Shown piece after piece: positions 6,846 through 22,353 of a stretch of 24,544 bases of DNA. A program made the position numbers and the translations under genes. The stretch is taken from IMG/VR virus record IMGVR_UViG_3300005842_000043, positions 1 to 24,544 of that record; one strand, written 5' to 3'. The notes beneath the pieces are model-generated. The model ran no database searches, was not told the origin of the DNA, and saw nothing but the letters and a program-made list of their open reading frames with translations. This DNA comes from a virus. The number at the start of each line of letters is the position of its first letter. The first letter of the stretch is position 1.

Positions 6846-9800
6846 TCAGAACCCCCCCTTCACGCTGCGGGCGATCTCATGGCGAAGTCCCGCCGCTGCC
6901 TGCATGCCGCTGCGCCGGTCGCGCCGATCATCGCCGGTCCCGACAATATGGACGCCGCCGACATGGATCGTCTGGCCGCTGGGTCGGTTGTCGTTCTCCG
7001 GCGAAATGCGCAGCTGTTCGCCGCGCCCGACGCGCGCGGTGGGAATGCCGTTGATGCTCAGCAGGTTCTTGTCGATGCCGCTGAAGCCGCGAATCGTGCC
7101 ACCCTTGGCGAAGCCGGGAATCTTGGTCAGAGACCCAGCCCAATCGCCGTTCATGACCGAGCCGAAGCCGGGCATTGAAGAGGTGAGGGCGCTGCCGCCA
7201 AGTTCGGCGGGGGAGCCGCCGCCGAAGTTGGTGCCGCCGAGCACCGTGCCGGCCACGCCGAGCAATGTGCCGAGCAGGCCGCCGCCACTGGTGCTGCCGG
7301 GCACGATGATCCCGTTGCTGCCGCCGCCCCCCTTGCCCCCAAAAAGCATATTGGCGAGCGGCGCGGTGATGTTCTGCTGGATCGCGATGCGCAGCAGATC
7401 GCGGACGATCCCGGCGGCCACATTCTTGAAGGCGTCGCCTAGGGATTCAACGCCCGTGATCGCATCGAGAATGCCATCCTCAAGCGAGCGGATGCCGTCG
7501 ACCTCAATCTGCTGATAGGCCTCTTTCACCTTGGCGGCGGTATCAAGCAGGCTGTCGCGGAACTGTTCGCCAGGGCCAGCGGTGGACCGGCGCACATTCT
7601 CCCGGTCGGATTTCCGGATGCTATCGAGAACGGCCAGCCGGGCCTCGGCGTTTTGATATTCCGCCGTGGTGGAGGCGTTGGTCGCCTTAATCAGGTCGAG
7701 CTGCGCGCGCTCTTGTTCATGTTGAAGATCAAGCAGGCGCATTTCCAGCTGGCGGCGCTCGTCAGCGGTCTGCGCCAGGGCCAGCTGCCCCTGAAGCATG
7801 TCGCGCTCATTCTCATTACCGGCCTCGGCGAGGTCGAATTTCTCCTGCGCAACGCGCCGCTCTTCGACCAGGCCGACCACCGCGAGGCGCTGATTGGCCA
7901 CCTTGTCATGGGCGGCGATCAACTCCTGTTTCTGGGCGGCGGAAATCCCCTCTTCCAGCATGGTCTGGCGCATGAAGGAGGCGCGATCCGCCTCGATCCG
8001 CGCCCGCTCAAGGTCGGCGCGCGCGGCCTCGTTGCCGGTGAGTTCGTTGGTCGCCTCCATGAGTTCCACGCGCAGGCGCGCGATGTCGTCCTGGAATTTC
8101 GCCGCGTCCTGCGCCGAACGGTCTTTTTTCTCTTTTTTCGAGCGTTCTTTTTTCTCCTTGGACGGCTTGTCGAAATCCAGGTCGATCGTGCCGGCCGGAT
8201 CGGCCGATCCGGCGGCGATCACAGCCTGAAGTTTCACGACCTCGGCCGTCCGCCCCTTGAGCACCTCTATGGCGGCGCGGGCGTTGACATCGGCCTGTTC
8301 CGACGCCCTTTTATTGGCCCCGATCTGGCTCAAGATGGCGTCTGGCCCGCCGGCCTGTATCCGGAACCTGGCATCAGCGACGCGTTGCGCGGACGTTGCG
8401 CGGACAAGTTCACGTTCCGCCATGGCCCGCTGAAGCGCAGCCTGAGCCGCCTTCAGATGGGCGACCGCCTCGACGCGGGCGGCCTTCGCATTGAGAAGAG
8501 CTTGTTTGCGCACCTCCCCGGTGGCCGAGGCGAGCGCGAGGGCAATTTCCTCATTTTTGGCCTGCGCCTTGGTGAGGTCTTCGGTCGCCTTCTGATATTC
8601 GCCCGTGGCGGCTTTTGCCCGGCTGGAGTAAAGCACGAGAAGCAGGAGCGCGGTCGCGACAAGCCCGATTATGCCAGCATAGGCGCCAAGCGTTGCCCCG
8701 GCCGTGCCAAGTATTACCCCGAACGAGCCCATGATGCCCGTCGCGCTGGCGATTACAACCAGCAGCCGCGCCAGTCCGGCGACAAGCACGCCGATCGGAT
8801 TGATCAGAAAAGCGATGGAAAGCCCAAACAAGCCGAGGCGGCTGATCATAAGCGGCAGGACGATCCTGGCGAGCGCGAGCGCTGCCAGGGTCAAAGGCCC
8901 CAATGCTGCCGCTAGCGCCCAGATCGCGATAACCGCCTTGTGCGCAATCGGCGGCAGGTTCGCGAACGCGTTCGTCACGCTCGCGATGGCGCTTTTTACC
9001 GCCGTCATGGCGGCGAGAATGCCGGCATTGCCAAGCGCGATCTTGAGGCTTTCAAACGCCGCCGCCATCCGGTTGCTGGCAGCGATGCTGCCCTGCATCT
9101 GGATTTCGAGCTTCTTGGCCGCATCGCCCTTGGCAATGGCGGCTTGCAGCTCCTCGAACCCCTTGCGGCCCTTCTGCATCAGTCCGATCGCGGTCCGCAT
9201 CGCGTCCGTGCCGAACATTTTTGTCAGCGCCTCGGTGCGCGACCGTTCAGAGAGGCTCCCCAGCTTGTCCTGAAGAATCTGCGCGATGTCCGCGAGGCCC
9301 TTCATCTTGCCGGTGGCATCGAAGAAGCTGATCCCCAGCTTCTCCATGACAAATTCAGCCTCGCTCGATTTCGCGTTCAGACTGGTGATGAAGGTTTTGA
9401 ATGAGGTGCCGGCATCCGACCCGCTCGCGAACAGGGCACTGGTTGCGGCAATCGCGGTGTTGAAGTCCTCGAACGAGACGCCCGCCGAACCGGCGACGCC
9501 GCCGGCCTGCGCAATGGCCTGCTGATAGTCGAGGAAGGAGAATTTGGAATTGTCAAGCGCGCCCGTCACCTTGTCGATGAGCGGTTCGAGGTCGGACGAT
9601 GTTTTCGCGAACTGCGCCATCACGTCGGTAACGAGCGTGGCCGCTGGCGCCAGTTCGGCGTTATTGGCTGCCGCCAGCTTCAGTGATGCGTCGAGGGCGC
9701 CGCCGAGGATGCCCTCGACGCCGACACCCGCCAGCGCCAAGCCTTCGATAGCGTCCGCCGCCTCAGTTGCGCTGCGACCGACCGCCGGGCCAAGCAGGCG

Positions 9801-10241
9801 CGCTTGCTCGGACAGTGCCTTCAACTGTTCAGCGCTGATACCTTGAAGCGCCGCCTGCACGCGGTTCATCGACGCCTCGAACGCGCCGGCCCCCTTGTCG
9901 GTCTTGGCGACCATGAGCGCGAATGGGGCGGTGATGCCGACCGTGAGGCCGATGCCAACCTTCTTGATGGTGCTTTCCAGCGCCTGCAGCTGCGCGCTCA
10001 CCTCTTTGGCGAACCGCGCAAATGCAGCCTGAGCCCGGACAGCCCCCCTGACCATGGCATCGGCGCCGGCCGCCAGGTTGCCGCCCACCTTCTTGATGAC
10101 GCCGCCCAGCGCCTGAAGCCGAGCGCTCACCTCTTGGGAGAACCTCGCCAGCACGCCCTGCGCGCGGGCAACGGCCTTGGTCAGCGCGGCTGTGTCGATG
10201 TTGAGCGTGACGCTCAGGGCGCCGATATGCGCAGACCCCAT
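6846..10241 (-). CDS. Tail tape measure protein
   Basis: A 1131-residue protein that sets tail length and is ejected with the DNA. The start ATG at 10241 has a GGGGAGG ribosome binding site about 5 bases upstream. Residues 1-100 contain two copies of a 43-residue unit (RAQGVLARFSQEVSARLQAL and RAQAAFARFAKEVSAQLQAL). Residues about 110-390 match the TP901-type tape measure core (SEQARLLGPAVGRSATEAAD, SLNAKSSEAEFVMEKLGISF). Around 440-550 there is a run of hydrophobic segments, probably membrane-spanning. After that come a long Ala/Glu/Lys coiled coil, a Lys/Glu-rich linker near residue 700 (KEKKERSKKEKKDRS), and a Gly/Ser-rich C-terminus (GGKGGGGSNGIIVPG). The length predicts a tail of roughly 170 nm, using the usual 1.5 angstrom per residue. 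It sits between the tail assembly chaperone and distal tail protein, its normal place. Confidence 0.93.
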   Translation of the reverse strand: MGSAHIGALSVTLNIDTAALTKAVARAQGVLARFSQEVSARLQALGGVIKKVGGNLAAGADAMVRGAVRAQAAFARFAKEVSAQLQALESTIKKVGIGLTVGITAPFALMVAKTDKGAGAFEASMNRVQAALQGISAEQLKALSEQARLLGPAVGRSATEAADAIEGLALAGVGVEGILGGALDASLKLAAANNAELAPAATLVTDVMAQFAKTSSDLEPLIDKVTGALDNSKFSFLDYQQAIAQAGGVAGSAGVSFEDFNTAIAATSALFASGSDAGTSFKTFITSLNAKSSEAEFVMEKLGISFFDATGKMKGLADIAQILQDKLGSLSERSRTEALTKMFGTDAMRTAIGLMQKGRKGFEELQAAIAKGDAAKKLEIQMQGSIAASNRMAAAFESLKIALGNAGILAAMTAVKSAIASVTNAFANLPPIAHKAVIAIWALAAALGPLTLAALALARIVLPLMISRLGLFGLSIAFLINPIGVLVAGLARLLVVIASATGIMGSFGVILGTAGATLGAYAGIIGLVATALLLLVLYSSRAKAATGEYQKATEDLTKAQAKNEEIALALASATGEVRKQALLNAKAARVEAVAHLKAAQAALQRAMAERELVRATSAQRVADARFRIQAGGPDAILSQIGANKRASEQADVNARAAIEVLKGRTAEVVKLQAVIAAGSADPAGTIDLDFDKPSKEKKERSKKEKKDRSAQDAAKFQDDIARLRVELMEATNELTGNEAARADLERARIEADRASFMRQTMLEEGISAAQKQELIAAHDKVANQRLAVVGLVEERRVAQEKFDLAEAGNENERDMLQGQLALAQTADERRQLEMRLLDLQHEQERAQLDLIKATNASTTAEYQNAEARLAVLDSIRKSDRENVRRSTAGPGEQFRDSLLDTAAKVKEAYQQIEVDGIRSLEDGILDAITGVESLGDAFKNVAAGIVRDLLRIAIQQNITAPLANMLFGGKGGGGSNGIIVPGSTSGGGLLGTLLGVAGTVLGGTNFGGGSPAELGGSALTSSMPGFGSVMNGDWAGSLTKIPGFAKGGTIRGFSGIDKNLLSINGIPTARVGRGEQLRISPENDNRPSGQTIHVGGVHIVGTGDDRRDRRSGMQAAAGLRHEIARSVKGGF

Positions 10242-10270: not shown

Positions 10271-10627
10271 CTAGGATTGGACTGGCGACCGCTTGCTGAT
10301 CGTCATCGGGATGCCGCCAGCCTTCATCGTCTGAAAGATCGCCAAGATTTCAGCCGGGGCCTGCTTGGCCGGCGGCTTGCCGATGAGCTTCGCCAGGGGC
10401 GGCATCGTCTTGGTGCGCGCGAGCGCTTCGCCATGCCAGACGGTCCACGCCCGGCCGCGATGCACGTCTTCCGCCACTTTCGCGCGCCCGGTCATCACCG
10501 CCCGAAAGGTTCGGGGCGTCTGACGCCAGAACGCGTCGGGCTCCAGGCCGGCGTAGGACCACGCCTCGATCAGGTCGTCCCAACTCAGCCCCGACGCGCG
10601 GCCTTCTTCTTCGTCGGGGCTTTCGGA
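10271..10627 (-). CDS. Tail assembly chaperone frameshift extension (gpT-like / GTA small tail protein), no normal start codon
   Basis: A frame that continues the tail assembly chaperone gene in the -1 frame, giving 118 residues after the slip and ending 29 bases before the tape measure gene. It contains LSWDDLIEAWSYAGLEPDAF followed by WRQTPRTFRAVMTGRAK. This resembles the short protein encoded between the chaperone and tape measure genes in GTA-like clusters. The first usable start codons, GTG 10498 and ATG 10495, lie after this conserved stretch. No ATG, GTG or TTG occurs in the frame between a TGA near 10690 and 10498. The conserved part is therefore most simply made by a -1 shift at 10627-10633, as in the lambda G/GT arrangement. 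A separate gene starting at CTG 10586-10588 is the alternative. The frame and its content are seen in the sequence; the mechanism is inferred. Confidence 0.65.
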   Translation of the reverse strand, partial: SESPDEEEGRASGLSWDDLIEAWSYAGLEPDAFWRQTPRTFRAVMTGRAKVAEDVHRGRAWTVWHGEALARTKTMPPLAKLIGKPPAKQAPAEILAIFQTMKAGGIPMTISKRSPVQS

Positions 10628-10941
10628 GGGTTTTCGTCGGCCTTCGGCATGACGGCGATGAACAGCCGCGTGAGGGCTTCGCTGGTTTCCTCAATGCCGA
10701 TCGCCGACAGAATCCGTCCGGTCTCTTTTTCCGTGGTGCTGGGATGATGCTCCTGAAGGCAGGCCCAGAATACCGTGCGCAGCAACGCGAAGGTCGGATT
10801 GTCGTTCAGGGCCGGGCCGAGCTGGTTGATGCCAAGCCCGGTCTCGGCTTCGATCTCGCAGAAGGTGTTGAAATCGAGGAGCAGCGTCATCCGCTCCCCC
10901 TCGACCTCAATCACCGCCTCGCCGCGCAATGGGTTCGCCAT
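10585..10941 (-). CDS. Tail assembly chaperone (GTA gp10/TAC-like, gpG-equivalent)
   Basis: A 118-residue protein starting ANPLRGEAVIEVEGERMTLL, the typical beginning of the GTA tail-assembly chaperone family, with LDFNTFCEIEAETGLGINQL after it. The body (residues about 25-95) is helical and includes LLRTVFWACLQEHHPSTTEK. The C-terminus is a Lys/Pro/Ala-rich tail (PPKAPTKKKAARRG). The start overlaps the stop of the tail tube gene by one base (TGATG). Position between tail tube and tape measure genes is diagnostic. These chaperones coat the tape measure protein during tail assembly and are not in the mature virion. The frame just upstream of its stop appears able to shift -1 into the following frame, giving a 223-residue fusion. 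Confidence 0.85.
   Translation of the reverse strand: MANPLRGEAVIEVEGERMTLLLDFNTFCEIEAETGLGINQLGPALNDNPTFALLRTVFWACLQEHHPSTTEKETGRILSAIGIEETSEALTRLFIAVMPKADENPPKAPTKKKAARRG
10627..10633 (-). promoter_or_regulatory. Candidate -1 ribosomal slippery heptamer
   Basis: Read on the minus strand, the heptamer is A AAC CCT in the frame of the tail assembly chaperone, fitting the X XXY YYZ pattern. A simultaneous -1 slip puts the tRNAs on AAA and CCC. The next codon read is TCC, which enters the open frame of the extension. It lies 42 bases before the zero-frame stop codon. The Asn re-pairing would have a third-position mismatch, so it is a weaker site than lambda GGGAAAG. No other heptamer of this form is seen between 10585 and 10650. 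Confidence 0.45.
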
Positions 10942-11372
10942 CAGACGACGGCCTCAGTCGTGTTGCCGGTGAACTTGACAGTCAGCGTGGCCGTCATGCG
11001 GTCATCGACAGGGACGCCGCGTTCATAACCCTTGGCAAAACAGTCGCCGTCGATCGTCCATTCATCGGCGCCGGCCACGTCAGGAATGACAATCCGGAAG
11101 GAGCGAGTGGCGCCATCGGCATGGGCGGCACGGCAGATCACGTCCGTCGCCGAACCGGGCACATAGTTCATCGTGAACGTGCCCTCGCCGGTCTCGATCA
11201 GGCCGGCAATATATTCGCGCTTGCGGCCCAGGCTCTTATAGTGGGTGATCTCGACTTCGTCCGTCTGATAGTTCGGGACCGTCAGCTCAAAGATGCCCGC
11301 AAGCTCCGTGAGTGCGCCAGCCGCGTCATCCAGCCAAAATTCAGCACCCCAACCGATCGATTCCCCTGCCAT
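10941..11372 (-). CDS. Major tail tube protein (GTA gp9 / TP901-1-like)
   Basis: A 143-residue protein. I chose ATG 11372 (MAGESIGWG) because GGAG lies 8 bases before it; an in-frame TTG two codons upstream is less likely. The sequence has the compact beta-sandwich pattern of lambda gpV-like tube proteins: GAEFWLDDAAGALTELAGIF, a Tyr-rich loop (YKSLGRKREYIAGL), the strongly conserved ETGEGTFTMNYVPGS, and FRIVIPDVAG near the end. It polymerises into stacked hexameric rings forming the tail tube. The gene lies just after a terminator-like hairpin whose U-tract is less than 20 bases from the start codon. The tube is needed in high copy, so separate control makes sense. Family assignment is confident. 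Confidence 0.88.
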   Translation of the reverse strand: MAGESIGWGAEFWLDDAAGALTELAGIFELTVPNYQTDEVEITHYKSLGRKREYIAGLIETGEGTFTMNYVPGSATDVICRAAHADGATRSFRIVIPDVAGADEWTIDGDCFAKGYERGVPVDDRMTATLTVKFTGNTTEAVV

Positions 11373-11846: not shown

Positions 11847-12280
11847 CAGCCCGTCCTTGCCGCCGTCGCAGCCTTGGTGATTTCTTTCGCCAGGGACTCC
11901 TGCAACCGCTTGATGGTGGCCTCAGCCTCCTGATCGAAGGCTGGCCGCATATAGGGCTGCGCCGGGGTATCGACCGTCCCGAACTCCACGAATGATGCAT
12001 AGGGCAGCGCGCTGAACCCGCCCGCTGGCCCCATCGCGATTTCGATGCTGGTCTTCGGGTCGCGTCCGCCGCGCGACGCGCGCCTGGTCCGCTGTTCGGA
12101 AACCGCGATCGACAGGGCCAGATTGCCTTCATCCACCGGAGCCCTGGCAGCGGCAATGGCCGCCATCGGCTCCAGCGCCTCCTTGCCAATCCTGCGTAGG
12201 GTGTTGCGCGCCACAGCCTTCGGCAATTGCGCAAGGGCGTGGTCAAGCTCCCGAAATCCCGAGAGCTTGACCCTCGTCAT
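11846..12280 (-). CDS. HK97 gp10-like head-tail joining / tail completion protein
   Basis: A 144-residue protein with the family pattern: a basic N-terminus (TRVKLSGFRELDHALAQLPK), RAPVDEGNLALSIAVSE in the centre, and the near-diagnostic FVEFGTVDTPAQPYMRPAFD before a C-terminal amphipathic helix. Members connect the tail to the head completion proteins. It overlaps the preceding gene by one base (TGATG) and the following one by one base, so it belongs to the same translation unit. The length is normal for the family. Confidence 0.9.
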   Translation of the reverse strand: MTRVKLSGFRELDHALAQLPKAVARNTLRRIGKEALEPMAAIAAARAPVDEGNLALSIAVSEQRTRRASRGGRDPKTSIEIAMGPAGGFSALPYASFVEFGTVDTPAQPYMRPAFDQEAEATIKRLQESLAKEITKAATAARTG

Positions 12281-12762
12281 CAGGATTCGCCGATGATGTA
12301 GATCGTGCCCGAGACATCGGTCCCGGAAAGCGTGATCAGATCGGCGGTGGTGGCGGTCACGGCCTGGCCCGCTGCCGTGGGATCGGCGAGCACGATGAAG
12401 CCGCCGGCCGGGACAACGATCTCATCCGTGGCGTCGCCGAGGAAGCCGAGGAACGACGCCGAGCCGCCGCCATAGGTCAGCGCGGTCGTGCCGTTATTCT
12501 TGATCGCAATCATCTTGATCGCGGTGAAGATCGCCGTTCCGCCGATGCCGTTGGTCAGCGCGCCCGCAAGGTCATAGGTCTGCGTGCCCGCGCCGACGAT
12601 CGAGAAATCGTCGGTAAAAATGTTGTTCGCCTGATTGGCGCCGGTCCCGCTGGTCAGCGTGAGCCGCAGCTTGTCCGAGATTTCCTGCGATACGGCGCCG
12701 ACATCCGGCGCGCCCGTGAGCGATGCAACGATCGAGGTCGTGATTTGGGCAGTCAAAGCCAT
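12280..12762 (-). CDS. Phage structural protein of unknown function, beta-rich
   Basis: A 160-residue protein with an excellent ribosome binding site (GGAG, 6 bases before ATG 12762) and one base between it and the stop of the head-tail adaptor gene. Residues 1-35 (ALTAQITTSIVASLTGAPDV) look helical. The rest is Gly/Thr/Ala-rich with short strands (FTAIKMIAIKNNGTTALTYG; FIVLADPTAAGQAVTATTAD) and no Cys, typical of virion surface proteins. It is inserted between the adaptor and gp10-like genes, a position that is often empty. It could be a decoration, minor tail or head-tail interface protein. I do not recognise the family; a structural role is inferred from position and composition only. Confidence 0.75.
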   Translation of the reverse strand: MALTAQITTSIVASLTGAPDVGAVSQEISDKLRLTLTSGTGANQANNIFTDDFSIVGAGTQTYDLAGALTNGIGGTAIFTAIKMIAIKNNGTTALTYGGGSASFLGFLGDATDEIVVPAGGFIVLADPTAAGQAVTATTADLITLSGTDVSGTIYIIGES

Positions 12763-13739: not shown

Positions 13740-14096
13740 TCAGGAAACGGTAATGGTGAATGTGCCGGTCTTGACGTTGCCACCCGCCGCGATCACGATC
13801 TTGACCCGGTCATTGGCCAGGACGATGGGAACCTCGGTCAGTGTGGACGCCGCGCCGGTCGCGCCGAGATTGCCGGCCGCCAGCGGATAAACCGTCTCGC
13901 TCGCATTGATGTTCTGGTCGGTCCAGATGCTCTGGCCAGTCGCCTCGGCGGTGATCGTGAAATCCACGCCATCGGCGAAGTCCACCTTGGTATAGGCGAG
14001 GCTATGAATGCGCCCAGTGACGACCGGCAGATAGGCCGTCGCCGATCCGTCCGCGATCGTCGTCGCCGTGACGCTATGGCGCTCTGCGTAGCTCAT
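13740..14096 (-). CDS. Small phage structural protein, possible head decoration
   Basis: A 118-residue protein beginning SYAERHSVTATTIADGSATA, followed by YLPVVTGRIHSLAYTKVDFA and TGQSIWTDQNINASETVYPL, and closing with VPIVLANDRVKIVIAAGGNV. The pattern is that of a small single beta-sandwich. I recall similar short proteins between capsid and connector genes in many siphophages, but no firm function. It overlaps the preceding 68-residue gene by 4 bases (ATGA) and is the last gene before a terminator. A decoration or capsid-stabilising role is inferred from position. No Cys residues and no signal peptide are seen. Confidence 0.75.
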   Translation of the reverse strand: MSYAERHSVTATTIADGSATAYLPVVTGRIHSLAYTKVDFADGVDFTITAEATGQSIWTDQNINASETVYPLAAGNLGATGAASTLTEVPIVLANDRVKIVIAAGGNVKTGTFTITVS

Positions 14097-14299
14097 CGGC
14101 CGCGTCCTTTCATCTTGCCCGCCCGGTGCAGCACCGCCCTTTCAGGCGCCGCCACAGTCGCGATTTCCGGCTCCCCGGTCTGTTCGGCGAACCCGCCCTC
14201 GATCAGAGCATAGGCGGTGATCCGGTCGGTTTCGATGATATCGCCGGGCGAGGCGTTAACCGCCGGCCCAGCGATGCGCGTCTTCATGCGGATCTGCAT
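14093..14299 (-). CDS. Small phage protein of unknown function (68 residues)
   Basis: A 68-residue basic protein (MQIRMKTRIAGPAVNASPGD, then ITAYALIEGGFAEQTG) ending with a Lys/Arg-rich tail (HRAGKMKGRGR). Its pattern, a short beta hairpin followed by IIETDRITAYALIEGGFAE, is that of small phage proteins next to capsid genes, where the helix after D often holds a residue-rich contact site. Start and stop overlap both neighbours (1 base TGATG, 4 bases ATGA), supporting that it is real. A second Met at codon 5 is a less likely start. The function is unknown; a head accessory role is inferred from context. Confidence 0.7.
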   Translation of the reverse strand: MQIRMKTRIAGPAVNASPGDIIETDRITAYALIEGGFAEQTGEPEIATVAAPERAVLHRAGKMKGRGR

Positions 14300-14766
14300 C
14301 AGCGCGTGATCACCACGGCGAGGTGGATACGGGGCGCGCCGCCAGCGCCGCCGCCGGCCACTGTGAAGTTCATCGCCGCGCCAGCCGTGATCACATTCGC
14401 GGCAGTCGGGGTAGCTACATCAACATCCCCAGCAGCCGAAGCTGCCGTGGCGATTGTGACCACACCGCTCGTAATCGCCGTAGCCCCGATTTTGCCGGTA
14501 ACTGTAATGTCTGCGGTCGAAACAACGTCATCGATCACCGTGTAAATCTTGCTGATCGTGCCGGCGATTGGGCTAGTCAGAAAATAGACCGCCTCGGCCG
14601 AGCCGTCAGCGATGTCGAGATGGAGGACGGTATCAAGCAGGCTGGAGCCGCCGGGCGTGGCGATGGCGCCACCGCTCTCGACGGTGATCGTGCCGCCAGA
14701 TGCAACGACCATCTCGTTGCCGCCGGACTTCTTATATATTTTGGGGCTGTAGGTTGCGTCGGCCAT
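14299..14766 (-). CDS. Probable head decoration / structural protein
   Basis: A 155-residue protein starting ADATYSPKIYKKSGGNEMVV with a GGAG site 7 bases before its ATG. Residues about 22-42 form a Gly/Val/Thr repeat (SGGTITVESGGAIATPGG), typical of small beta-helical spikes or stalks. The rest (about 45-155) is a Thr/Ala/Val-rich beta domain (VYFLTSPIAGTISKIYTVID; GDVDVATPTAANVITAGAAM) that resembles domains I remember from phage capsid decoration genes. No Cys or charged catalytic cluster is seen, so an enzyme is unlikely. It lies in the accessory block between capsid and connector. A decoration role is inferred. Confidence 0.75.
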   Translation of the reverse strand: MADATYSPKIYKKSGGNEMVVASGGTITVESGGAIATPGGSSLLDTVLHLDIADGSAEAVYFLTSPIAGTISKIYTVIDDVVSTADITVTGKIGATAITSGVVTIATAASAAGDVDVATPTAANVITAGAAMNFTVAGGGAGGAPRIHLAVVITR

Positions 14767-14867: not shown

Positions 14868-15311
14868 TTACGCGGTGCCGTTGATCGGGCTGACGCTCAG
14901 CTCTTGCGTGACGACCGTTGCATCGGCGGCAACCGGCATCTTCACCGGATCGTAGAGTTCGGCGATGATGCAGTTGACCACCGAGTTCTGCGTGGCGCGG
15001 TCCACCCAGGGGCGGACATAGCGCAGCGCCGGCTTGTGGATGTCGAGGATGTAGAGCTTGTCATCCCCGTCATCGGCAACGGTGATGCTGCTGCCGAGGA
15101 TATCGTCGGTTCCCTTGGTCGGGCTCGACGTGGCCAACGCAGACGCGCCGACCGAAGTCACCGCGCCGGAGGTGATGGTGCCGAACGAGAAGATGAACCG
15201 GACACCCTCATAGCCGGACATATCGACCGCCGTGGCGTCCGTGATGTCCGCGCTGCCGGCGGCAACCGCCGTTTTGCAGAGGATGGTCTTGACTTTATTG
15301 GTGAGCTGCAT
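14868..15311 (-). CDS. Phage structural protein next to the capsid gene
   Basis: A 147-residue protein beginning MQLTNKVKTILCKTAVAAGS, with AVDMSGYEGVRFIFSFGTIT as its core and DILGSSITVADDGDDKLYIL, YVRPWVDRATQNSVVNCIIA later. The composition (Ser/Thr/Ala/Val, few charged residues) is that of a beta-sandwich virion protein, and the pattern resembles small proteins I know directly after HK97-like capsid genes. It starts 27 bases after the capsid stop, with AGGGA as ribosome binding site. It could be a decoration protein or head stabiliser. No catalytic motif is seen. The family is recognised only by pattern. Confidence 0.75.
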   Translation of the reverse strand: MQLTNKVKTILCKTAVAAGSADITDATAVDMSGYEGVRFIFSFGTITSGAVTSVGASALATSSPTKGTDDILGSSITVADDGDDKLYILDIHKPALRYVRPWVDRATQNSVVNCIIAELYDPVKMPVAADATVVTQELSVSPINGTA

Positions 15312-15338: not shown

Positions 15339-16553
15339 TTAGGCCAGCTTCACGCGGGCAAAAGCCTCCTCCAGAACCGGCATGCCGTCCGTCTCGACGC
15401 GGCTGATGAAGCCAATCTGGTTGGTTTCGGCGTACAGTTCGGTGAGGCGCTGCATCTGCAAGCTCAGCGCGTCGGCGATCCAGTATTTTGAGAAATCGCC
15501 GAGCAGGCCGACATACAGGCCGGTCGTGAAGGTGTTCGGCGCATATTCCGAAACATTCATCGGCATGCCGAGAATGGTGTCGGGCTCGCCGACGCGAACC
15601 GATTCGCGCCAGAGATACTGGCCGTCGCCGTCCTTCAACTTGGTGATCATCTTCACCGCGTCGCGGTGGAAGAGCCACTGAGCCTTGCCCCAATAGGCAG
15701 CCTTGAGCGCGTATTTCGCCTCGATCAGGCCGTCAAAGGTGACGGCGGTCGTGCTGTTGCCGGTGAAGACGTCGCGGCCGGTCGAGATGCCGTTGGCCGA
15801 TGCGGTGAACACGCCCAGCGGCTGGGCTGCGCCATTGCCGGTCAGGAACGCCTTTTCCTGCGTGACGCCGACCTTGTACGACATGCGATCGATGATGATC
15901 CGCTCGACAGGCATGATGGCCTTGCGGATCAGGTCATTCGAGATCTTCACGCGCTTCGCCATCGGATGAGGATACAGATTGCGCTTGCCGAAGCGGATCG
16001 AGTCTTCCTCGTTGCCGGTCAGCAGCTCGGTCGTCCAATCCGTATCTTCCGCATCCGTGTCGAGCGTGGGCACGCCGAGCGAGGATGCCTGACCGACCTG
16101 AAACTTGGTCGCGAGGCCGCGAATGAATACGGCGTTGTCAACGGCCTGGATCATCTGCTGGACGAACTGCTCCGGCGCGACGAGAAAGCCGCCCTCAGTG
16201 TCCGAACCGGCCTGAAAGGCGCGATATTCCTCAGCCCCTTCGCCGTCGATCCGGCCGAAGCTGAGATATGACCGGAAGCCCGCCATGCGGAGTTCGGCGT
16301 CGCTTTTCGGTGCGGCGCGATCTTCCTGGCGCTCCTCCTGCCGATCGGCGATGAGGCGGCCAGCCTCAATGCTGCGCTCTTCGGCCGTGATTTGCTTGCC
16401 GAGATTTTCGACCTCATCGAAAATGGTCGAGTGGCGCGTTACCTCCTCATCGGTCAGGTCGCGCTTCTCAACGGTTCCAGCCTCAGTGATAGCGCGCATG
16501 TCGTGAATGAACTCACCGCGTTTTGCGCGGAGTTCCTTGAGCCGTTCGCTCAT
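15339..16553 (-). CDS. HK97-type major capsid protein
   Basis: A 404-residue protein. I chose ATG 16553 (MSERLKELR) with GGAG 6 bases before it; an in-frame TTG four codons upstream lies within the U-tract/RBS and is unlikely. Residues 1-100 are charged and helical, with coiled-coil heptads (delta domain/scaffold), ending near AELRMAGFRSYLSFG. The rest has the HK97 fold pattern: GSDTEGGFLVAPEQFVQQMI, WTTELLTGNEEDSIRFGKRN (E-loop region), FLTGNGAAQPLGVF and LYVGLLGDFSKYWIADALSL near the end. It lies directly after portal and protease genes. The protease probably removes the N-terminal domain. A terminator-like hairpin is adjacent to its ribosome binding site. Assignment is very confident. Confidence 0.96.
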   Translation of the reverse strand: MSERLKELRAKRGEFIHDMRAITEAGTVEKRDLTDEEVTRHSTIFDEVENLGKQITAEERSIEAGRLIADRQEERQEDRAAPKSDAELRMAGFRSYLSFGRIDGEGAEEYRAFQAGSDTEGGFLVAPEQFVQQMIQAVDNAVFIRGLATKFQVGQASSLGVPTLDTDAEDTDWTTELLTGNEEDSIRFGKRNLYPHPMAKRVKISNDLIRKAIMPVERIIIDRMSYKVGVTQEKAFLTGNGAAQPLGVFTASANGISTGRDVFTGNSTTAVTFDGLIEAKYALKAAYWGKAQWLFHRDAVKMITKLKDGDGQYLWRESVRVGEPDTILGMPMNVSEYAPNTFTTGLYVGLLGDFSKYWIADALSLQMQRLTELYAETNQIGFISRVETDGMPVLEEAFARVKLA

Positions 16554-16563
16554 AGTATTCTCC

Positions 16564-16590
16564 AAAAAAAAGGCCGGCGGAATGCCGACC
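16564..16590 (-). terminator. Intrinsic terminator joined to the capsid ribosome binding site
   Basis: A 7-bp stem with one G-U pair (GGTCGGC / GCCGGCC, 16572-16590, 5-base loop) is followed by eight Ts (16564-16571). The GGAG site of the capsid gene starts at the next base (16563) and the ATG 10 bases after that. It lies 26 bases after the protease stop. Confidence 0.75.
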
Positions 16591-20324: not shown

Positions 20325-20730
20325 CTATCTCCACGCGGGACCGCGACGCGGGCGTAAACCCCATCTCGCTCGCCGCTTTCAACATGATCGCCGCCTGCTT
20401 GTTGACGATCGAGATGTAGGGCGACTGCACCGGCATCCCGTTGGGCGTCTTGATCAGCAAGGCGCCTGTATTCAGTTTCTGCGCAGCCTGACGGTGGAGG
20501 TCTTCAGCGATGACCCATGCCACCAGCGTCGAACGATCGACCCGCTTGAGCAAGCCATAGGGCGCGGTCTCGATCGCGTATTCCCAGCCAACCCGCTGCT
20601 CTTGCGTCAGCCAGGCCGGCGGATCGCGCAGATTGCCGCGCGGTTTCGGTTCCTTCTTGGGCAGCGCCCGCTTACCGGGATTGCCGGCAACGATCTTGAG
20701 CGCGGTCGGCTTCCTCGGTGGTCCTGGCAT
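20269..20730 (-). CDS. terS: Terminase small subunit (P27 family)
   Basis: A 153-residue DNA-recognition subunit. The family opening is present (PGPPRKPTALKIVAGNPGKR, then PKPRGNLRDPPAWL), followed by a helical centre (AIETAPYGLLKRVDRSTLVA) and the conserved end AAIMLKAASEMGFTPASRSR. An acidic tail follows (DGGDEDEDPADLFF). It binds the packaging start site and recruits TerL. It overlaps the methyltransferase stop by one base (TGATG) and the start of terL by 56 bases, so coupling is likely. Family assignment is confident. Confidence 0.93.
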   Translation of the reverse strand: MPGPPRKPTALKIVAGNPGKRALPKKEPKPRGNLRDPPAWLTQEQRVGWEYAIETAPYGLLKRVDRSTLVAWVIAEDLHRQAAQKLNTGALLIKTPNGMPVQSPYISIVNKQAAIMLKAASEMGFTPASRSRVEIDGGDEDEDPADLFFARPN

Positions 20731-21968
20731 CAGGCGGCGACCTTGGCATCCCGCGCGGCCCGCATGTCATCGAACAGGCGGCCGTCAGCGTGCGTCGCCT
20801 GCAGGCCTGTGAACTCCTGCCAGCGGATGACCGCTACGTCGACATAAGCCGGGCTGAGTTCGATCGCGTGGATGGAGCGGCCCGTCATCTCGCCCGCGAT
20901 GATCGTCGTGCCGCTGCCGCTGAAAGGCTCGTACACCGCCTGTCCCGCGCTGCTGTTATTCTCGATCGGGCGCTTCATGCACTCGACGGGCTTTTGGGTG
21001 GAGTGGCCGGTTTCGGACCTCTTGGGCTTATCGATCTGCCAGAGGGTGGTCTGCTTGCGGCCCCCATCATAACGGCCCGGCTTGCCCTTGCGGACGGCAT
21101 ACCAGCAGGGCTCGTGCTGCCAATGATAGTCGCCTCTGCTCATCACCATCTGGCTCTTCGCCCAGATGATCTGCGAACGCGGTACAAGGCCCGCTGTGGC
21201 TAGGCTGTCGGCGACCGTGCCGGCATGGAGCCCGGCGTGCCAGACATAGGCCACGTCGCCAGGGAACAACGCCCACGCTTCGGTCCAATCGGCTTTGTCG
21301 TCGTTCATGACCTTGCCGAGCGCGGCAGTGTCCTTGTTCACGCCCGCGTCCACACGCCAACTGGCATCATACTCCACCCCATAGGGCGGGTCTGTAACCA
21401 TCAAATGCGGCACCACGCCGTTCAGCGCGGCCGCGACGCAATCCGCGTCGGTCGAATCCCCGCAGACAATCCGATGCTTTCCCATCAGCCAGATGTCGCC
21501 CGGAACCGAAACGGGATCGGCAGGCGCCTCGGGCACATCGTCGGGATCGGTTAAACCCTCGGTCTTGTCGATCGTCAGCGCGGCCATCTCGTCATCAGAG
21601 AAGCCGAGCAGCGCCATGTCAAAGTCAGCGTCGGCCAGTTCGCCAATCTCAAGCGCGAGCATGGCGTTGTCCCAGCCGGCATTCAGGGCCAGCTTGTTGT
21701 CGGCAATGATCAGCGCCCGCTTCTGCGTTTCGGACAGTCCATCAAGGACAATGCACGGCACGTCCACATGGCCGAGCTTGCGCGCCGCAAGCAACCGGCC
21801 GTGGCCCGCGATAATGCCATCCGCGCCGTCGATCAGGATCGGATTGGTCCACCCGAACTCGCGGATACTCGCCGCGATCTGCGCCACCTGCGCGTCGCTA
21901 TGCGTGCGCGCATTGCGGGCATAGGGGATGAGCGCAGTGACCTGGCGGGACTCGACCTGGATTGTCAT
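20730..21968 (-). CDS. ParB-domain DNA methyltransferase (N6-adenine/N4-cytosine type)
   Basis: A 412-residue protein. Residues about 1-100 form a ParB-like domain (YARNARTHSDAQVAQIAASI; DGADGIIAGHGRLLAARKLG). Residues 165-400 form the methyltransferase: motif IV DPPYGVEY (near 192), HSTQKPVECMKRPIE, and motif I VYEPFSGSGTTIIAGEMTG (near 350). The order IV before I is that of the beta class, which methylates adenine N6 or cytosine N4 using S-adenosylmethionine. Phages use it to evade host restriction or as an accessory of packaging or regulation. It sits between the HNH and terminase genes, with AAGGGGGG as ribosome binding site. The target sequence cannot be read from the gene. Family is sure; the role is inferred. 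Confidence 0.92.
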   Translation of the reverse strand: MTIQVESRQVTALIPYARNARTHSDAQVAQIAASIREFGWTNPILIDGADGIIAGHGRLLAARKLGHVDVPCIVLDGLSETQKRALIIADNKLALNAGWDNAMLALEIGELADADFDMALLGFSDDEMAALTIDKTEGLTDPDDVPEAPADPVSVPGDIWLMGKHRIVCGDSTDADCVAAALNGVVPHLMVTDPPYGVEYDASWRVDAGVNKDTAALGKVMNDDKADWTEAWALFPGDVAYVWHAGLHAGTVADSLATAGLVPRSQIIWAKSQMVMSRGDYHWQHEPCWYAVRKGKPGRYDGGRKQTTLWQIDKPKRSETGHSTQKPVECMKRPIENNSSAGQAVYEPFSGSGTTIIAGEMTGRSIHAIELSPAYVDVAVIRWQEFTGLQATHADGRLFDDMRAARDAKVAA

Positions 21969-22064: not shown

Positions 22065-22331
22065 TCAGCCGATCGGCCAGCCATCTGGGCAGGTGCCGAT
22101 GGTCCTGCGATGACCGAACTGCTCGGCGGTGCGTGCCTTGTGGCAGTCGGCGCAGAGGCAGCGGATGTTGCTGTCATCGTCGCTGCCACCCTTGGTGAGC
22201 GGAACGATATGGTCCGGTACTGTGGCTTCCCGGACGACCCCCTTGGCGACACAGTCCCGGCACAGCGGTTCGGCCTGTAATCGTCGCAGGCGCTGCGCGA
22301 CCGCCCGACGTCCCCGTTGCCGTTCAGCCAT
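22065..22331 (-). CDS. HNH endonuclease (packaging-associated)
   Basis: An 88-residue protein starting at ATG 22331; an in-frame TTG two codons upstream is less likely. It has a basic helical N-terminus (AERQRGRRAVAQRLRRLQAE), a zinc-binding CRDC pair, the HNH core VPDHIVPLTKGGSDDDSNIR and the second pair CLCADCHKART. The H (DHIV), N (SNIR) and H (CHKA) residues are all present, so it is probably active. Small HNH proteins next to terminase genes assist TerL in cutting cos sites (HK97 gp74 type), and this one is probably of that kind, although a methyltransferase gene lies between. The gap of 96 bases to the methyltransferase gene holds no clear feature. A GC hairpin lies just before the gene. 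Confidence 0.9.
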   Translation of the reverse strand: MAERQRGRRAVAQRLRRLQAEPLCRDCVAKGVVREATVPDHIVPLTKGGSDDDSNIRCLCADCHKARTAEQFGHRRTIGTCPDGWPIG

Positions 22332-22353
22332 GCGCAACGCCTGAAACGAACAA

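Follow-up and report, generated by a model that had tools for sequence, protein, structure and literature searches.

The window, by which we mean the whole stretch of DNA analysed, is a 24.5-kb virus contig (24,544 nt) whose minus strand carries a siphophage tail module. A tail assembly chaperone gene with an overlapping second frame is flanked by a lambda-type tail tube gene, directly upstream, and the tape measure gene, directly downstream, which is the position expected of a lambda G/GT-type pair. The tape measure gene also matches several tape-measure PHROGs and is followed by a DUF2460 gene and then by baseplate genes of the phiJL001/BR0599 type; for the tail tube ORF an alternative start is possible at TTG 11378. 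The features of the locus are listed in window coordinates.

10941..11354, minus strand: major tail tube protein (PF16461 Phage_TTP_12, E 2e-15)
10585..10941, minus strand: zero-frame ORF, gpG-like tail assembly chaperone of 118 aa (GTA-gp10 / Phage_TAC_11-like; PF11836, phrog_2115)
10627..10633, minus strand: candidate slippery heptamer A_AAC_CCT, in phase, under synonymous constraint
10622..10626, minus strand: 5-nt spacer CCGAA between heptamer and stem
10612..10621, minus strand: stem-loop 5' arm, AGCCCCGACG (dG -19.9 kcal/mol for 44 nt, z -2.6)
10587..10596, minus strand: stem-loop 3' arm, CGTCGGGGCT, its last base the first of the zero-frame stop TGA
10271..10690, minus strand: -1 open frame
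10273..10588, minus strand: T-like domain in the -1 frame (LSWDDLIEAW...EPDAFWRQTPRTF...; PF09550, phrog_19318, 31 homologues aligned)
10271..10941, minus strand: predicted gpGT-like fusion of 223 aa, the two frames joined at the heptamer
6846..10241, minus strand: tail tape measure protein (PF10145, E 1.1e-39)

The zero-frame protein matches phrog_2115, annotated 'tail protein', with an E-value of 1.9e-22. Against PF11836 it scores 23.2 bits over profile positions 1-86 of 96 (E 7.6e-5), short of the gathering cut-off of 27.8, and by this comparison it is related to the Phage_TAC_11 / GTA-gp10 family while lying outside its curated threshold. Its AlphaFold model (pLDDT 87) is folded to about residue 97 and ends in a flexible tail. 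A Foldseek search with this protein gave no match at E <= 0.001, its comparison with ORF12 of phage p2 (3d8l) reached a Z of only 2.4 and ranked among unrelated rows, and structure searches with the zero-frame and T-like domains brought up no PDB entry that was a convincing relative of either one.

An earlier note on this DNA had proposed that the chaperone gene probably undergoes programmed -1 frameshifting, and its description of the second frame was borne out. The -1 frame, placed by the note between about 10690 and 10271, is open from 10690, after TGA 10693-10691, to the stop TAG 10273-10271 and overlaps the zero frame by 106 nt. As claimed, no ATG, GTG or TTG precedes the conserved stretch; the first such codon is GTG 10498, already within the conserved domain. 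That domain scores 24.3 bits against PF09550 (Phage_TAC_6), marginally above the cut-off of 23.4, and 23.3 bits when the 34 upstream residues are added; it also matches phrog_19318, a family of unknown function (E 1.7e-16). Joining the frames at the heptamer gives the 223 residues that had been predicted, 105 zero-frame and 118 -1 codons meeting at DENP/SESPD. The slip point, at residues 104-105, falls in the flexible tail beyond the folded chaperone domain of the AlphaFold model, so the T-like domain would be appended by a linker.

The heptamer named in the earlier note as a candidate, A AAC CCT at 10633-10627, is present with AAC in the P site and CCT in the A site, in phase with the upstream frame. 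It is the sole X_XXY_YYZ heptamer in the overlap and occurs in frame once in the 6557 codon junctions of 21 window genes, which together hold 10 in-frame X_XXY_YYZ heptamers of any kind. The description of the site as not a textbook one also holds: it is a true X_XXY_YYZ sequence, but its A-site half is C-rich and tRNA-Asn would re-pair with a wobble mismatch. A survey in E. coli, which used the IS3 pseudoknot as a strong stimulator, recorded shifting at 61 of 64 X_XXZ_ZZN heptamers; the three that failed include A_AAC_CCA, A_AAC_CCU is not among them, and A_AAC_CCU is not among the strong motifs either (PMC4066793).

We gathered loci from viral contigs, phage records and bacterial genomes, of which 40 were left, the window included, after duplicates were removed; these are related loci and not independent samples. 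Scans for close relatives with the window proteins alone yielded none for gp10 and three for the T-like frame. Very distant members aligned too weakly for scanning, and closer subsets were used instead. Of two scans of genome contigs, the first confirmed no locus and the second confirmed two; from an exact-codon pattern scan the unrelated L022, L024, L026, L028-L030, L034 and L039 were excluded. When the zero frame was chosen by ORF length, the second frame was read as +1 in four loci including the window, the third frame being open by chance, and gp10 homology restored the -1 assignment.

The earlier note had proposed a homologue alignment as a check on frame and heptamer. The zero-frame ORF matches the gp10 profile in 40/40 loci (by construction in the eight from which the profile was built, and at E 2e-7 or better in the others), the T-like domain lies in the -1 frame in 40/40, and no ATG, GTG or TTG precedes the domain in 38/40. 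The split is shared by isolates (Rivra, W2, Shpa), bacterial genomes, among them prophages of Aurantimonas endophytica and Sphingomonas hankookensis, and other metagenomes. The window itself is a single metagenome-derived record, and decay of the gene, or an error in sequencing or assembly, could in principle divide a reading frame in this way; with the same -1 split in 39 other distinct loci and both frames conserved, such an origin is hardly credible.

Within the last 40 codons of the overlap, an in-phase X_XXY_YYZ heptamer occurs in 31/40 loci, against 11.4 expected from codon shuffling, and the other two phases hold heptamers in 9 and 4 loci. The commonest type is GGGAAAC (12 loci), followed by AAACCCT (9, the window and eight relatives), GGGAAAG (6, lambda's own) and AAAAAAG (3), with others including CCCCCCG. 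Over all overlap codon sites the heptamers number 41/1169, compared with 7/3588 (0.2%) in the part of these ORFs that lies further upstream (Fisher p 7e-19, for loci that are related). Dependence on codon phase would be expected of ribosomes only, and argues against a fusion made by transcriptional slippage at a homopolymer run. The latter is suggested by nothing more than the AAAA run in GAAAACCC; the runs available, 4 A and 3 C, are shorter than those used for such slippage, and GGGAAAC, GGGAAAG and CCCCCCG in the relatives keep to the codon phase. We regard it as extremely unlikely.

Selection on A_AAC_CCT can be seen at the nucleotide level. The heptamer is found nine times in the overlaps and not at all upstream in the same ORFs. 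To avoid choosing by outcome, all Asn-Pro dipeptides were listed: they are spelled NNA AAC CCT in 9/10 cases in overlaps and in 0/23 upstream. The codon before AAC CCT is GAA, GCA, GGA or CCA, so that the amino acid varies and the A is kept, and codons ending in A make up only 11% in these ORFs. Retention of the A despite the changing amino acid is the strongest evidence that A_AAC_CCT is the functional site. In a tree of both proteins built with the overlap tail removed, many of whose branches are weakly supported, the A_AAC_CCT and GGGAAA types interchange, at least two changes being forced for A_AAC_CCT. Both sites are overlapped in L046 as G_GGA_AAC_CCT, plausibly a step between the two types.

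The nine loci that have no heptamer bear on where in the overlap slipping might take place. Eight of them carry an in-phase C_CCT, as in GAC CCT CCC (L002/L003), CAC CCT CCG (L067/L068) and CGC CCT CAG (L041). The ninth, L005 (phage Rivra), has CGC CCC, with a 12-bp hairpin after 5 nt. In the whole set C_CCT occurs 20 times against 9.0 expected, the 20 including all nine A_AAC_CCT loci. A shift elsewhere in the 106-nt overlap, or a slip by tRNA-Pro alone on C_CCT, would accommodate these relatives, and C_CC.U, one of six shifty tetramers in E. coli, shifts weakly there, as does C_CC.C (PMC4066793). For the window we nevertheless judge this improbable, because A_AAC_CCT is the only X_XXY_YYZ sequence in its overlap and because a slip by tRNA-Pro alone would not need the A before AAC, yet that A is constrained. 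The heptamer-less NNC_CCT loci themselves (L002, at 1860; L003, at 2454; L004, L041, L067, L068, L069 and L021), most of which continue with a second Pro codon, may support slipping by a single tRNA or with help from a Pro-Pro step. Tentatively, we suggest that a class of proline-codon sites, comprising A_AAC_CCT and the heptamer-less NNC_CCT and CGC_CCC, might serve this chaperone family through cognate re-pairing of tRNA-Pro from CCU or CCC to CCC, interchanging with G_GGA_AAC/G. Most of these sites precede another Pro codon, which suggests that they are possibly helped by a slow Pro-Pro step.

A feature that the earlier note did not mention is a stem-loop 5 nt beyond the heptamer, within the 5-9 nt at which stimulatory stem-loops or pseudoknots are sought; its own stimulatory role is putative. 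The stem, AGCCCCGACG/CGTCGGGGCT, is a perfect 10-bp inverted repeat with a 15-nt loop and a dG of about -19 kcal/mol. The window as a whole has about six places with a perfect stem of at least 9 bp and a loop no longer than 20 nt. Ranked by energy against comparable hairpins of this GC-rich window, the stem falls in the top 6% and is not exceptional (80/1308 control sites are as stable), which makes it suggestive of a role and not proof of one, and folding of the 91 nt around the heptamer gives a z of only -1.1. No strong stem was found at the corresponding place in the A_AAC_CCT relatives L062, L063 and L066; conservation of the stem among relatives is only partly supported. Other perfect stems of 10-11 bp in tail-module coding sequence, at 9688-9698/9711-9721 and 12241-12250/12263-12272, have no adjoining in-frame heptamer.

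A second arrangement of the T-like domain is seen in homologous loci on bacterial chromosomes. In chromosomal PF09550 loci, which come mostly from Sphingomonadaceae, to which Sphingomonas hankookensis belongs, a start codon precedes the domain by no more than 75 nt in 31/31 cases, in 25/31 as an NTGA overlap with a TGA, and a PF11836 gp10 gene lies upstream in 4/4 loci tested. We infer that these are GTA clusters from their frequency (41/60 genomes) and the GTA-gp10 match. The paired GTA-type gp10 (PF11836) and Phage_TAC_6 proteins are homologous to the window's pair; the difference is that they have a start of their own, whereas the window has none before the domain. The earlier note had named a homologue with a standard start in this place as evidence that would tell against frameshifting. 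Such homologues exist only in the GTA-type loci, and are absent from the phage relatives nearest the window. The GTA-type loci show that a -1 phase alone is no proof of frameshifting, and the missing start and the heptamer carry the case. A heptamer is listed among them only for L073 and L084, the latter read on the wrong strand. In L073, which is the second PF09550 locus in genome G002, from Aurantimonas endophytica, the zero frame ends at about 1451-1470 with A_AAC_CCT_TGA and a TTG start overlaps the stop; judged by this arrangement, it is possibly an intermediate between frameshifting and a separate gene.

By the same route, the T-like domain of the window might be made as a separate protein from CTG 10588, GTG 10498 or ATG 10495, by reinitiation after TGA 10587 as in the GTA type. 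CTG 10588 does overlap the zero-frame stop (CTGA) with the same geometry as the NTGA of 25/31 GTA-type homologues, but it lies at the foot of the stable stem and has no clear ribosome binding site. A start at GTG 10498 or ATG 10495 would lose the conserved EPDAFWRQTPRTF and begin inside a predicted long helix. Among the phage loci, moreover, slippery heptamers are conserved and start codons are not, 38/40 lacking any ATG, GTG or TTG before the domain. We consider separate initiation decidedly improbable.

Taken from sequence comparison, the families, the frame, the missing starts and the conserved heptamer support the proposal of the earlier note: the window chaperone is very probably a lambda G/GT-type gene decoded by programmed -1 ribosomal frameshifting at A_AAC_CCT. 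Slipping itself and its rate are inferred, as are stimulation by the stem and a part for the products in assembly. Most ribosomes would read the zero frame and produce the 118-aa chaperone. A minority would pause at the heptamer, aided by the downstream stem-loop, and slip back one base, tRNA-Asn leaving AAC for AAA, where it has a wobble mismatch, and tRNA-Pro leaving CCT for CCC, where its pairing is cognate. The slipped ribosomes would read on to TAG 10271 and yield the 223-aa fusion carrying the T-like domain. In lambda, the tape measure protein is the binding partner of gpG, and the tail tube protein is brought in by the T part of gpGT (PMC5009743). By analogy, the short form would coat the tape measure protein and the fusion would recruit the tail tube subunit.

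Frameshifting of the -1 type in the tail chaperone gene is known across tailed phages, and the window case is largely expected. With lambda gpG/gpGT the window shares the gene order tail tube - G - T - tape measure and, by prediction, the short protein with a -1 fusion whose T domain is startless; the lambda heptamer G_GGA_AAG is used by the relatives L012, L013, L040, L050, L051 and L055. Unlike lambda, the window has A_AAC_CCT, proteins of the GTA-gp10/Phage_TAC_11 and Phage_TAC_6 families, and a predicted strong stem 5 nt downstream. A -1 frameshift was also predicted in the chaperone gene preceding the tape measure gene of the Caulobacter phages phiCbK (AAAAAAC) and Colossus (GGGAAAC), likewise alphaproteobacterial tailed phages (PMC3556154). 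The window differs from these in its slip site, and GGGAAAC is shared by its relatives. A -1 frameshift in this chaperone gene is known for most of a set of Rhodobacter phages (PMC8601537), and slippery sites with letters other than A and T occur in actinophages (PRFect, PMC10885494).

In the openly accessible literature searched, AAACCCT/AAACCCU was not named as a natural slippery site, and A_AAC_CCT appears only as a laboratory-tested motif. Here it recurs in alphaproteobacterial phages of high GC content, with selection acting on its nucleotides, and the window locus offers a natural test case for C-rich slip sites. A likely function is thereby offered for PHROG families such as phrog_19318. 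The contrast between phages and GTA-type loci in the expression of the second ORF, of which we found no description in the openly accessible literature searched, suggests that a fixed-ratio fusion is kept by phages, and that domesticated chromosomal elements do not need it or have replaced it.

Elsewhere in the window, three successive Ala/Thr/Gly-rich ORFs on the minus strand (13740-14096, 14299-14766 and 14868-15311) adjoin a capsid-like ORF at 15339-16565; none matched in a PHROG search, and they are possible capsid decoration proteins. The sole PHROG match of the ORF at 12280-12762 is phrog_22694, of unknown function. At 20730-21968, also on the minus strand, one protein combines a ParB-like N-terminal part with a DNA methyltransferase C-terminal part (phrog_498); its ORF adjoins an HNH endonuclease ORF (22065-22337) and lies upstream of a terminase-like gene.
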